Shown: piece after piece, positions 13,713 through 48,832 of the stretch
How positions within the stretch are numbered: the first letter of the stretch is position 1
How the letters are laid out: every line of letters starts with the position of its first letter
Origin: Bacillus pumilus
GTDB lineage: Bacteria > Bacillota > Bacilli > Bacillales > Bacillaceae
Direction: 5' to 3'
DNA length: 64,000 nt
NCBI RefSeq assembly: GCF_900186955.1
Contig: NZ_LT906438.1
Coordinates: 496,001-560,000, forward strand
Translations under genes and position numbers: made by a program
Notes under the pieces: generated by a model
Told to the model about the DNA's origin: nothing
The model's input: the letters and a program-made list of their open reading frames with translations, nothing else
Databases searched by the model: none

Positions 13713-14981
13713 ATGAAGAGGCTTTTGAAGAACCTGACATTTCAGGTGATTGCAGCTGTCATTATCGGGATCATTGTCGGGATGGTTTGGCCAAACGTCG
13801 GAAAAGAAATGAAGCCGCTTGGTGACACCTTTATCAATGCCGTTAAAATGGTCATCGCACCAATTATTTTCTTAACCATTGTTCTTGGTATTGCCAAGAT
13901 GGGGGATATGAAAAAGGTTGGAAAAGTTGGGGGAAAAGCATTTATTTATTTTGAAGTCGTCACGACGCTTGCTTTGGTCATCGGTCTTTTTGTCGTCAAT
14001 ATCATGAAGCCAGGTGCAGGTCTGGACTATAGCAAGCTTGAAAAAGGGGATGTTTCACAGTATACCCAAAACGGGGGACAGGGTATCGACTGGATGGAAT
14101 TTGTCACACACATTGTGCCATCTAACATGGTAGATGCTTTTGCAAAGGGTGATATTTTACAGGTCTTATTCTTCTCTATTTTATTCGGTGTTGCGCTTGC
14201 TGCACTTGGCGAGAAGGGGAAAGGAATCATTGAGTGGCTTGATAAGCTGTCACTTGTTTTCTTTAAAATCATTGGATATATCATGCGTGCTGCGCCGCTT
14301 GGTGCATTTGGGGCAATGGCCTATACAATCGGTCACTTTGGTTTGGCATCGATTAAACCGCTCGCAAGTCTGATGCTCTCCGTTTATTTGACTATGTTCC
14401 TGTTCATCTTCGTTGTGCTGAATATCATTTGTAAAATGTATGGCTTCAGCCTGTTTGGTTACCTGCGATTTATCAAGGATGAAATTTTAATTGTTCTTGG
14501 CACAAGCTCATCAGAATCCGTGCTGCCAAGAATGATGGATAAAATGGAACGCTACGGGTGCTCTAAGTCTGTTGTGGGTCTTGTCATCCCAACAGGGTAT
14601 TCCTTTAACTTAGATGGAACCTCGATCTACTTATCGATGGCTGTGGTCTTCTTAGCGCAAGTGTTTGGTGTAGACTTGTCTATCGGCCAGCAAATTACCA
14701 TTATCCTTGTTCTAATGCTCACATCAAAGGGAGCGGCTGGGGTGACAGGAAGCGGATTTATCGTGCTGGCTTCTACACTCGCTGCACTACAGGTCATTCC
14801 GCTAGAGGGGCTTGCACTTCTGCTTGGTGTAGATCGATTCATGAGCGAAGGAAGAGCCATCACAAACCTCATTGGAAATGGAATCGCGACAATTGTTGTG
14901 GCGAAAAGTGAAGGTGAATTTGACGAAGCGAAGAGCAAAACAGCCCTTCAAGAAATGCGCAATATAAAGCAAGCTGTATAG
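13713..14981 (+). CDS. dctP: C4-dicarboxylate carrier DctP (DAACS family)
   Basis: 422 residues, a sodium- or proton-coupled dicarboxylate/amino acid symporter of the plasma membrane with the family's eight helices and two hairpins. The hairpin-1 serine motif is LGTSSSESVLP, the TM7 motif GYSFNLDGTSIYL, and the TM8 region VDRFMSEGRAITNLIGNGIAT, where the Asp/Arg pattern fits C4-dicarboxylate carriers (DctA-type). GAGGGAG is 10 bases before the ATG. It lies behind dctSR and the cre and inverted-repeat elements, and is expected to take up fumarate, succinate and malate under DctR activation and CcpA repression. Confidence 0.93.
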   Translation: MKRLLKNLTFQVIAAVIIGIIVGMVWPNVGKEMKPLGDTFINAVKMVIAPIIFLTIVLGIAKMGDMKKVGKVGGKAFIYFEVVTTLALVIGLFVVNIMKPGAGLDYSKLEKGDVSQYTQNGGQGIDWMEFVTHIVPSNMVDAFAKGDILQVLFFSILFGVALAALGEKGKGIIEWLDKLSLVFFKIIGYIMRAAPLGAFGAMAYTIGHFGLASIKPLASLMLSVYLTMFLFIFVVLNIICKMYGFSLFGYLRFIKDEILIVLGTSSSESVLPRMMDKMERYGCSKSVVGLVIPTGYSFNLDGTSIYLSMAVVFLAQVFGVDLSIGQQITIILVLMLTSKGAAGVTGSGFIVLASTLAALQVIPLEGLALLLGVDRFMSEGRAITNLIGNGIATIVVAKSEGEFDEAKSKTALQEMRNIKQAV

Positions 14982-16232: not shown

Positions 16233-16261
16233 TTTACAATTTTCCGAAAATAAGGTATAAA
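16233..16261 (+). promoter_or_regulatory. SigA promoter of the riboswitch transcript
   Basis: TTTACA (16233-16238) and TATAAA (16256-16261) are separated by 17 bases and lie about 22 bases before the riboswitch core. Confidence 0.65.
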
Positions 16262-16282
16262 TAGTATGAAAATATCATATTA

Positions 16283-16406
16283 CCACACGCTTAATCCTTC
16301 TAAAGGAATGGGGGACCCATGTTTTTGGGGTGAATTTTTCTCTGTGAGAAAAAAGGACATCTCTTCGTCCTAACCCGTCAGCTAACCTCATCGGCGTGAA
16401 GAGAGT
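16283..16406 (+). promoter_or_regulatory. c-di-AMP riboswitch (ydaO-yuaA type)
   Basis: The leader contains the conserved blocks of the ydaO-type aptamer in order: CGCTTAATCC, then GGGGGACCCA, GGGGTGAAT, then GTCCTAACCCGTCAGCTAACC and GGCGTGA at the 3' end. CACGC (16286-16290) pairs with GCGTG (16394-16398) to close the outer stem. An intrinsic terminator follows at 16431-16467. Just behind the outer stem, AAGAGAGT (16399-16406) is the exact complement of ACTCTCTT (16447-16454) within the terminator, a plausible antiterminator. Known members are genetic OFF switches: ligand binding favours termination. The downstream gene is a DAACS carrier, not a K+ transporter. Confidence 0.9.
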
Positions 16407-16430
16407 AAACAGTGGTACGTGTATGGAAAC

Positions 16431-16467
16431 AAAGACCCACGAGAAAACTCTCTTGTGGGTCTTTTTT
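16431..16467 (+). terminator. Riboswitch expression-platform terminator
   Basis: AAAGACCCAC and GTGGGTCTTT, with inner GAGA/TCTC pairing, form a strong hairpin followed by six T residues, 22 bases before the start of the carrier gene. Confidence 0.9.
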
Positions 16468-16488
16468 GATGAGGAAGGGGAGATTTTA

Positions 16489-17730
16489 TTGAAGCTAGCG
16501 ACGAAAATTATTATTGCCTTGTTTGTAGGTGCAATCACAGGACTATTGCTTAACATTTTTGCTCCAAATGTATTCAAAGTGTTAGACCCTTATCTATTTA
16601 CGCCTCTAGGTCAAATCTTCTTAAACCTGATTAAAATGTTAGTGGTGCCGATCGTATTCTTTTCCATCACACTAGGTGTAGCAGGTCTAGGTGATCCGAA
16701 AAAGCTTGGCAGAATCGGCGTAAAAACCATTACTTATTTCCTGCTTACTACTACTTTTGCCATCATCATTGGCATTTCATTAGCCTTATTAATCAAGCCG
16801 GGAGCATTCGGTCATTTTGATACGAAAGCAGCTGATTATTCCGCAGAGGAAGCCCCATCAATGGCAGAAACACTACTCAACATCATCCCAACCAATCCAG
16901 TCCAATCTTTAGTTGAAGGAAACATGCTTCAAATCATCGTCTTTTGTGTATTTTTAGGTCTTGGCATTGCCATGCTTGGGAAGAAGACGGAAGGTTTGCT
17001 AAAGCTGTTTGAACAAGGAAATGAATTAATGATGTACCTTGTCGGCATAGTGATGAAGTTCGCACCGTACGGAACATTCGGTTTGATCGCAACTGCCATT
17101 GGCAGTCAGGGATTTGATGCGATGAAAGCGATGGGCCTTTATTTCTCGGTCGTGTTAGTTGCGCTCGTGCTGCATTTCTTCCTAACTTATGGGTCAACTG
17201 TCGCCATTTTAGCGAAGCGAAATCCGATGGCATTTTTCAAAGGATTTTCTCCAGCAATGGTTGTCGCATTTAGTACGTCAAGTAGTAACGCAGTCCTCCC
17301 AGTCTCGATGGAAACAGCCCAGAAACGTTTGAAGGTGCCGGAGCCGATTTCAAGCTTTGTACAGCCGCTTGGTGCAACCATTAATATGGATGGCACAGCG
17401 ATTATGCAAGGGGTCGCGACTATTTTTATCGCGCAAGTGTATGGAGTTGAACTGACGCTTGTCCAAATGCTGACGGTTGTCTTAACGGCTGTCTTAGCAA
17501 GTATCGGTACAGCGGGTGTGCCAGGAGTTGGGCTCATTATGCTCGCTATGGTACTGAACTCTGTGAATCTGCCGGTTGAAGGCATTGCGCTCATCCTTGG
17601 CATAGACCGCTTATTAGATATGGCAAGAACCGTTGTCAATATTACAGGTGACGCCGCATGTGCGGTGATTGTGACAGAAACGGAGAAAAAACACGAGACA
17701 GACGCAGCATCACCGAACCTATCCATGTAA
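16489..17730 (+). CDS. Dicarboxylate/amino acid:cation symporter (DAACS, glutamate/aspartate-type)
   Basis: 413 residues from the TTG at 16489, which has GGAAGGGGAG 6-7 bases upstream. The in-frame ATG at 16396 lies inside the riboswitch and terminator and is rejected. The DAACS signatures are present: hairpin-1 AFSTSSSNAVLPVSM, the TM7 motif NMDGTAI, hairpin-2 GTAGVPGVG, and TM8 DRLLDMARTVVNITGDA. The Asp and Arg in TM8 match carriers of acidic amino acids such as GltT/GltP, so glutamate or aspartate uptake with Na+ or H+ is the best guess. B. subtilis has no such gene between ydbI and ydbJ. Control by the c-di-AMP riboswitch suggests it is switched off when c-di-AMP is high. Confidence 0.88.
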   Translation: MKLATKIIIALFVGAITGLLLNIFAPNVFKVLDPYLFTPLGQIFLNLIKMLVVPIVFFSITLGVAGLGDPKKLGRIGVKTITYFLLTTTFAIIIGISLALLIKPGAFGHFDTKAADYSAEEAPSMAETLLNIIPTNPVQSLVEGNMLQIIVFCVFLGLGIAMLGKKTEGLLKLFEQGNELMMYLVGIVMKFAPYGTFGLIATAIGSQGFDAMKAMGLYFSVVLVALVLHFFLTYGSTVAILAKRNPMAFFKGFSPAMVVAFSTSSSNAVLPVSMETAQKRLKVPEPISSFVQPLGATINMDGTAIMQGVATIFIAQVYGVELTLVQMLTVVLTAVLASIGTAGVPGVGLIMLAMVLNSVNLPVEGIALILGIDRLLDMARTVVNITGDAACAVIVTETEKKHETDAASPNLSM

Positions 17731-17738
17731 TGTAAAAG

Positions 17739-17766
17739 AAGGGCTGACTCGATCAGCCCTTTTTTT
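17739..17766 (+). terminator. Terminator of the riboswitch-controlled symporter
   Basis: AGGGCTGA and TCAGCCCT flank a short loop and are followed by T residues. Confidence 0.85.
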
Positions 17767-48160: not shown

Positions 48161-48235
48161 TCCGCAGTAGCTCAGTGGTAGAGCTATCGGCTGTTAACCG
48201 ATCGGTCGTAGGTTCGAGTCCTACCTGCGGAGCCA
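48161..48235 (+). tRNA. tRNA-Asn (GTT)
   Basis: 75 bases with encoded CCA. Acceptor TCCGCAG pairs with CTGCGGA; anticodon loop CTGTTAA gives GTT; T arm GGTTCGAGTCC. First of seven tRNAs in the order of B. subtilis trnS. Confidence 0.95.
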
Positions 48236-48238
48236 AAT

Positions 48239-48329
48239 GGAGAAGTACTCAAGTGGCTGAAGAGGCGCCCCTGCTAAGGGTGTAGGTCGCGCGAGCGGCG
48301 CGAGGGTTCAAATCCCTCCTTCTCCGCCA
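48239..48329 (+). tRNA. tRNA-Ser (GCT)
   Basis: 91 bases with a long variable arm and encoded CCA. Acceptor GGAGAAG pairs with CTTCTCC; anticodon GCT in CTGCTAA. Confidence 0.95.
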
Positions 48330-48336
48330 TTTATCT

Positions 48337-48408
48337 GGCCCGTTGGTCAAGCGGTTAAGACACCGCCCTTTCACGGCGGTAACACGGGTTCGAATCCCGT
48401 ACGGGTCA
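48337..48408 (+). tRNA. tRNA-Glu (TTC)
   Basis: 72 bases; anticodon TTC in CTTTCAC, T arm GGTTCGAATCC, acceptor GGCCCGT with ACGGGTC. CCA is not encoded. Confidence 0.95.
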
Positions 48409-48429
48409 TGTTTTGTTTTTTTCATTCGT

Positions 48430-48504
48430 TGGGCTATAGCCAAGCGGTAAGGCAACGGACTTTGACTCCGTCATGCGTTGGTTCGAATCCAGCTAGCCCA
48501 GCCA
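48430..48504 (+). tRNA. tRNA-Gln (TTG)
   Basis: 75 bases with encoded CCA. Acceptor TGGGCTA pairs with TAGCCCA; anticodon TTG in CTTTGAC. Confidence 0.95.
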
Positions 48505-48534
48505 TTTTTTTATATGTTTTTCTGCATAGCAGAT

Positions 48535-48610
48535 GAGCCATTAGCTCAGTTGGTAGAGCATCTGACTTTTAATCAGAGGGTCGAAGGTTCGAGTCCTTCA
48601 TGGCTCACCA
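48535..48610 (+). tRNA. tRNA-Lys (TTT)
   Basis: 76 bases with encoded CCA. Acceptor GAGCCAT pairs with ATGGCTC; anticodon TTT in CTTTTAA. Confidence 0.95.
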
Positions 48611-48617
48611 TTGTCAC

Positions 48618-48700
48618 GCGGGTGTGGCGGAATTGGCAGACGCGCTAGACTTAGGATCTAGTGTCTTTATGACGTGGGGGTTCAAGTCCCTTCACCCGCA
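48618..48700 (+). tRNA. tRNA-Leu (TAG)
   Basis: 83 bases, class II variable arm. Acceptor GCGGGTG pairs with CACCCGC; anticodon TAG in CTTAGGA. No CCA encoded. Confidence 0.95.
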
Positions 48701-48748
48701 TTGTTTTTTCAAACAGTGCACTTATGAATATATGAGCACATCATACAC

Positions 48749-48832
<84 letters not shown>

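Follow-up and report, generated by a model that had tools for sequence, protein, structure and literature searches.

The riboswitch targets named for Bacillus subtilis are KtrAB and KimA (PMC7857571). The kimA (ydaO) and ktrAB (yuaA) riboswitches belong to the same aptamer family as the leader described here and, as here, have transporters as targets; those targets are K+ importers, whereas the target here is a carrier of the SDF family. A further close case is the kdpFABC riboswitch of Bacillus thuringiensis, in which the aptamer is followed by an intrinsic terminator, as in our leader. It is a proven OFF switch, with c-di-AMP promoting termination, but it controls a K+ ATPase operon and not an SDF carrier; in the same species, K+ limitation lowers c-di-AMP (PMC6488665). 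Amino-acid transporters have already been published as a class behind ydaO RNAs (PMC7266159, PMC9960051), and a wide variety of transporters has been mentioned for this riboswitch class (PMC3766115). Potassium and glutamate are both tied to the messenger. For example, B. subtilis without c-di-AMP tolerates potassium only at very low levels and, in minimal medium, tolerates no glutamate (PMC7857571), and in L. lactis c-di-AMP lowers the glutamate/aspartate counter-ion pools via K+ import (PMC8092236). A non-exhaustive reading of PMC7857571 shows no importer of glutamate that c-di-AMP controls directly. In the literature searched, an SDF carrier governed by a c-di-AMP riboswitch is not discussed, and a prior listing elsewhere is possible. 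The mechanism is already known; an acidic amino-acid importer is an unusual target.

One leader of the kind described here has been seen in transcripts. In B. licheniformis, BLi_r0356 is a ydaO-yuaA leader of BLi00536, transcribed by RNA-seq as a 225-nt 5'UTR (542296-542520), and the main text mentions BLi00536 a single time, in a table row without a function (PMC3871023). Among our genomes, G012 has a match to the Rfam family RF00379 at 542499-542640 and an SDF gene at 542715, so that the two leaders are the same locus by coordinates, with an offset of about 194. We infer that G012 is B. licheniformis and that BLi00536 is the ortholog of the SDF gene studied here.

That gene lies in the window, which is the whole 64,000-nt stretch analyzed (G000:C1:496001-560000, from a Bacillus pumilus genome of 3.86 Mb). 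The reading that we favor, with a probability of roughly 70%, is that its leader would be a transcriptional OFF riboswitch on a glutamate/aspartate importer, coupling uptake of the counter-ion to uptake of K+. The features on which this reading draws are as follows, with all coordinates in the window.

3-1211, + strand: kimA, 3' part (PDB match)
16233-16261, + strand: promoter, TTTACA at 16233-16238, 17 nt, TATAAA at 16256-16261 (sequence)
16278-16410, + strand: c-di-AMP (ydaO/yuaA) riboswitch aptamer (RF00379)
16360-16366, + strand: aptamer hairpin loop UCUCUUC, putative pseudoknot with the 3' tail at 16398-16404 (7-bp complement)
16398-16406, + strand: aptamer 3' tail GAAGAGAGU, the strand common to the loop pairing and the antiterminator
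16431-16465, + strand: intrinsic terminator of the expression platform, stem 16431-16464 plus T run (sequence and folding)
16447-16454, + strand: antiterminator 3' strand, in the terminator loop and 3' arm (complement of 16399-16406)
16475-16482, + strand: ribosome binding site AAGGGGAG (sequence)
16489-17730, + strand: SDF/DAACS symporter gene, 413 aa, TTG start, probable glutamate/aspartate importer (PF00375)
17739-17766, + strand: hairpin plus T run 3' of the SDF gene (sequence)

The leader and its predicted switch

A sequence-only reading of this DNA had placed the leader in the ydaO-type class, and a covariance search bears this out. RF00379 matches 16278-16410 on the + strand at 100 bits (gathering score 38 bits; E 1.5e-22) over the full length of the covariance model (positions 1-134). 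Only two RF00379 matches occur in the window's genome at E <= 0.001, one being this leader and the other the kimA leader. The promoter that had been pointed out is present as well, and it is largely conserved in 19 leaders examined from the same genus: all 19 have TTTACA followed by a 17-nt spacer, and the -10 box is TATAAA in 15, TATAAC in 3 and TTTAAT in 1. The claim of a strong terminator also stands, with a stem at 16431-16464 of about -21 kcal/mol and a T run. A simple consensus scan listed neither the leader promoter nor the leader terminator. In our view the scan was too stringent for either element, since it required the -10 box to end in T, and since the T run of this terminator pairs inside the stem.

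Translation of the SDF gene starts at TTG 16489-16491, downstream of AAGGGGAG, in agreement with the start and ribosome binding site proposed earlier. At the same position in 30 same-genus loci, the start codon is TTG in 15 and ATG in 15. The longest ORF begins at GTG 16396, a start that was rejected because it lies inside the aptamer tail and its ORF would cross the terminator; it is also disfavored by the KLA.KI-type start with TTG or ATG in 30/30 same-genus loci. The hairpin and T run that follow the gene, a hairpin that the scan lists on the - strand (17761-17739), indicate that the SDF gene probably stands alone.

How might such a leader switch? The 8-base antiterminator pairing noted in the sequence-only reading is an exact complement, between 16399-16406 (AAGAGAGT) and 16447-16454 (ACTCTCTT), so that sequence and predicted folding together give an expression platform with a terminator set against an antiterminator. 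When prefixes of the RNA are folded with ViennaRNA, the best structure contains the antiterminator when the RNA ends at 16454 or 16458, and the terminator wins from an end at 16462 onward. In the best fold of the RNA ending at 16454, the closing stem and the antiterminator stand side by side. Here the sequence-only reading needs correction: in the predicted prefix fold the closing stem does not by itself exclude the antiterminator, and the closing stem alone was rejected as the switch because the two coexist. It was this compatibility that prompted the proposal of a pairing between the aptamer loop and the 3' tail. In the whole-leader minimum-energy fold with no ligand, the terminator is already formed, and hence antitermination would have to be kinetic.

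The proposed loop-tail pairing joins UCUCUUC at 16360-16366 to GAAGAGA at 16398-16404, a 7-bp complement, and would compete with the antiterminator for the aptamer 3' tail. Across 20 leaders in the same register, 97.1% of the cells pair, a value reached by 0/500 shuffles. Three pairs among these leaders are changed on both sides, a number matched by 44/500 shuffles, and the covariation, UA to AU at two pairs in four rows of the Cytobacillus group, is in substance one clade's change. With all 33 leaders the proportion of pairing cells is 80.5%, because the register shifts, and 224/500 shuffles have as many two-sided changes. In 40 of 49 distinct leaders the longest complement between the tail and an upstream loop is at least 5 bp, the block being another one in some of them (for example, L011, L096, L260 and L272); shuffled tails equal the 7-bp complement blocks in about 2-8% of cases. 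The platform itself recurs. A terminator-like hairpin is found in 51/51 distinct leaders, a count without a chance control, and an antiterminator of at least 5 bp within the terminator loop or 3' arm in 49/51. Shuffles of single leaders often give pairings as long as the shorter antiterminator matches, at frequencies of up to about 0.6; it is therefore recurrence among related leaders that carries the weight.

Taken together with the family to which it belongs, the leader RNA would be expected to bind c-di-AMP. At low c-di-AMP, the aptamer 3' tail (16398-16406) would pair with 16447-16454, and this pairing of tail and terminator arm would let RNA polymerase read through into the SDF gene. High c-di-AMP would instead have the aptamer folded and its tail held in the loop pairing (16360-16366 with 16398-16404), the held tail would leave the terminator at 16431-16464 to form, and the SDF gene would be off. 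The OFF direction is presumed by analogy with the riboswitch family, in particular the kdpFABC riboswitch of B. thuringiensis.

The carrier and its probable substrate

The gene product matches PF00375 at 454.8 bits over residues 3-397 of 413, a full-length family match that upholds the earlier assignment to the DAACS carriers. Named relatives at 89-92% identity come from B. pumilus, B. altitudinis, B. safensis and other Bacillus species. Among PDB chains the best match is 9bgz (E 5.4e-122), titled "Aspartate transporter"; this chain is AncInt, a reconstructed transporter (PMC12668577). With sites numbered as in GltPh, and the numbering transferred by aligning the carrier to its PDB relatives, the equivalents of D394, R397, T398 and N401 are all present, as in an acidic amino-acid site. 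These positions are important for acidic substrates in SDF proteins. The site residues thus fit an acidic amino acid, and the substrate is probably glutamate and/or aspartate. The tyrosine at GltPh position 317 is replaced by M in the carrier and in 80/80 named relatives, so the specificity of the carrier may deviate. The NCBIfam models for GltP, DctA and SstT all match the carrier under their cut-offs; the GltP equivalog NF008440, for example, gives 306.2 bits against a cut-off of 638, and the carrier is not filed as GltP. We know of no member of the carrier's clade with a measured substrate. Staphylococcus GltT was considered as a characterized member and dropped, being 52% identical to B. 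subtilis GltT (PMC7299772), which is in the other clade; the name S. aureus is absent from the visible labels among the 120 rows listed.

Which ion is coupled to transport? The published signature of H+-coupled members is A, L, I, V, M or F at 92, L at 311 and N at 405 (and E at 279) (PMC12668577). The carrier has T92, M311, D405 and N279 and, judged by these residues, is not of the proton-coupled type. It resembles GltPh and AncInt in T92, M311, D405 and the absence of E279, and differs from them in F for Y89, M for Y317 and N for S279. Apart from F for Y89, Na+-site residues are largely retained. AncInt has all Na+ residues present yet binds its substrate without Na+ (PMC12668577), so the residues of the carrier do not prove Na+ coupling.

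The genome encodes four other SDF proteins. The proton signature is complete in DctP, L063 and L064; L065 shows I92, E279, C311 and H405. L063, at genome position 1042795, is presumably of the B. subtilis GltT type. It is also of the SDF family but falls on a separate side of the tree (100/100), has I92, E279, L311 and N405, unlike the riboswitch-led carrier, and has no RF00379 leader among the genome-wide matches at E <= 0.001. This GltT-like paralog bears the H+ signature, although B. subtilis GltT is called Na+-coupled (PMC7299772). The gene for DctP, a C4-dicarboxylate carrier, is a second SDF gene of the window (13713-14981) and is preceded by ORFs resembling a sensor kinase and a response regulator.

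Conservation, loss and potassium-gene neighbors

The pairing of the riboswitch with the SDF gene is real. At an ortholog threshold of E <= 1e-100, the SDF gene is found in 34 of 44 same-genus genomes and RF00379 in 44/44. All 34 orthologs have RF00379 directly upstream on the same strand (coordinates compared by eye), including G007, where the gene match is partial (residues 192-411), and the leaders of same-genus genomes with the gene score 80-108 bits. In other genomes of the same family, the ortholog occurs in 28/36, with RF00379 directly upstream in 14 of the 28. By genus, the leader is upstream in 7/7 for g2, 5/6 for g216, 1/1 for g217, 1/1 for g218 and 0/13 for g215. The SDF gene of G368 (g216) is preceded by a weak 51-bit leader (L272:2862-3003), whose tail is without the usual motif; this is perhaps a decaying leader. 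Of 80 named loci from relatives, 13 likewise have RF00379 directly upstream of the gene, among them those of Bacillus zhangzhouensis, B. sonorensis, B. haynesii, Cytobacillus oceanisediminis, Metabacillus mangrovi, Alkalihalobacterium chitinilyticum and Tepidibacillus decaturensis. The other 67 have no RF00379 match above the gathering score, two of them having less than 60 nt upstream. On a tree of 96 rows, 25 of which bear the riboswitch label, the label requires 6 changes, and supported branches make at least 4 of them unavoidable: the leader has been gained or lost several times.

A wider spread of the pair, across the phylum, is unsupported. In a non-random sample from 299 genomes, made up of 30 loci and 60 further down the same list, SDF was found in 0/89 ORFs downstream of riboswitches and in 0/90 loci by six-frame reading. 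The ORF taken was the longest starting within 750 nt, which may skip a short first gene, and L183 had no ORF.

Ten same-genus genomes are without the SDF gene at the threshold, and ydbI is present in 10/10. Three of these retain fragments of the SDF gene between ydbI and ydbJ: G024 has residues 1-63 and 350-413 together with a degraded leader, G032 has residues 355-400, and G035 has the 3' end only (84% DNA identity over 304 nt to L032). Searches of the other seven found no SDF remnant. G035 belongs to the B. subtilis group, to judge from its ydbI, which is 97% identical to a cluster labeled B. inaquosorum. Its RF00379 matches, at 486 kb and 3.19 Mb, presumably correspond to kimA and ktrAB as these are placed in strain 168. 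The simplest reading is that the genus has had the SDF gene for a long time and that the gene-less lines have lost it. A remnant in the B. subtilis group may be the reason that no targets other than kimA and ktrAB are known in that group.

The neighborhood of the gene points toward potassium. As the sequence-only reading had it, the window begins inside kimA, about 15 kb from the carrier: residues 1-402 of the partial protein match PDB 6s3k (potassium transporter KimA, E 1.2e-202), and kimA has its own RF00379 leader, outside the window at genome positions 495125-495272 and 17 kb from the SDF leader. KimA itself was long labeled an amino-acid transporter, which tempers the published placing of that class behind ydaO RNAs, and Pfam AA_permease_2 is still detected in it. 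Elsewhere in the family, ktrA is the recurring neighbor. KtrA adjoins the SDF gene in 13 of 28 family loci (flanks up to 1.5 kb), and RF00379 lies between the two in 11 of these 13, in genera g2, g215, g216 and g218. The SDF gene of g215, which is without its own leader, stands just before a riboswitch-ktrA unit in 7/13. In Metabacillus mangrovi (L072), the order is riboswitch, SDF, UptA, riboswitch, KtrA, with the undecaprenyl phosphate transporter UptA at L072:3867-4469 (NCBIfam 318.7 bits, cut-off 250); UptA relatives adjoin the SDF gene in several g216 loci. A single KtrA/C-type protein is encoded in the window's genome; it shares 51% identity with Metabacillus KtrA and is without an RF00379 leader. 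We take it to be KtrC, in which case kimA and the carrier look like the only riboswitch targets of the genome.

The earlier suggestion of one signal for anion and K+ uptake is supported by this conservation and by the riboswitch-led ktrA neighbors. If the SDF gene product is a cation-coupled importer of glutamate and/or aspartate, then, with kimA about 15 kb away under the same messenger, import of K+ and import of its acidic amino-acid counter-ion would go up and down in step, and the signal that limits K+ uptake may also limit uptake of the partner anion. This would be a direct transcriptional link between K+ and acidic amino-acid pools, present in the groups of B. pumilus and B. licheniformis as well as in several further genera, with K+ genes nearby, and in species that are tractable and non-pathogenic. 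A broader idea, which we put forward tentatively and at somewhat less than even odds, is that the Bacillaceae had an old c-di-AMP ion-pair module. In this module a K+ importer (kimA or ktrAB) and a dedicated non-proton acidic amino-acid importer would be co-set at transcription, and the B. subtilis group would have lost the anion half, leaving a scar between ydbI and ydbJ, so that the module was hidden in the model organism.

Competing explanations and other c-di-AMP riboswitch loci

What else could the pair be for? A counter-ion purpose seems the best fit, and two alternatives keep the riboswitch as described while changing its meaning. The carrier could move another organic anion or amino acid, such as a C4-dicarboxylate or a neutral one, in which case the link would be to nutrients or osmolytes. 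Its place under the cut-off of all specific NCBIfam models and the M at 317 across the whole clade examined lean this way, as does the encoding of DctP 1.5 kb upstream. That neighbor, however, has S and A at positions 394 and 398, where the carrier keeps the acidic-site residues, and scores 646.9 bits with the DctA model against 262.5 for the carrier, whose best solved relative is named an aspartate transporter; we regard a different substrate as unlikely. General turgor control is a more serious alternative, if still a rather doubtful one. It would make glutamate or aspartate one osmolyte among others, with import stopped when c-di-AMP signals excess turgor and with no special tie to K+. Osmolyte-transport and cell-wall genes are indeed found behind c-di-AMP riboswitches in the phylum sample (OpuAC in 2/89 ORFs, NLPC_P60 in 4/89, LysM in 3/89). 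Yet the neighbor that recurs beside the SDF gene is ktrA, in 13/28 loci and in a survey of neighbors that did not cover osmolyte importers, and kimA is present in the window's own genome.

The leader could instead be a decaying or ligand-independent remnant, leaving the SDF gene effectively constitutive. Patchy presence, the degraded leader beside a broken gene in G024 and the weak 51-bit leader of G368 are what such decay would produce, but within the genus the gene is always accompanied by a leader scoring 80-108 bits, and terminator and promoter are conserved, which makes this very improbable.

Other loci touched by the analysis gave minor observations. In the phylum sample (L157-L246), LAM_C, of the lysine 2,3-aminomutase family, is found in 29/89 ORFs after c-di-AMP riboswitches; these ORFs may, we assume, encode a glutamate 2,3-aminomutase making the osmolyte beta-glutamate. 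An octopine dehydrogenase domain is found in 8/89 ORFs of the same sample. In six places, two or three c-di-AMP riboswitches stand in tandem on the same strand, separated by about 30-85 nt (G345:C1:3357947-3358515, G341:C1:4401795-4402369, G360:C1:1079685-1080050, G236:C49:83916-84257, G370:C6:61525-61826 and G374:C34:24537-24861). Finally, seven tRNA genes are clustered at 48161-48832 of the window.
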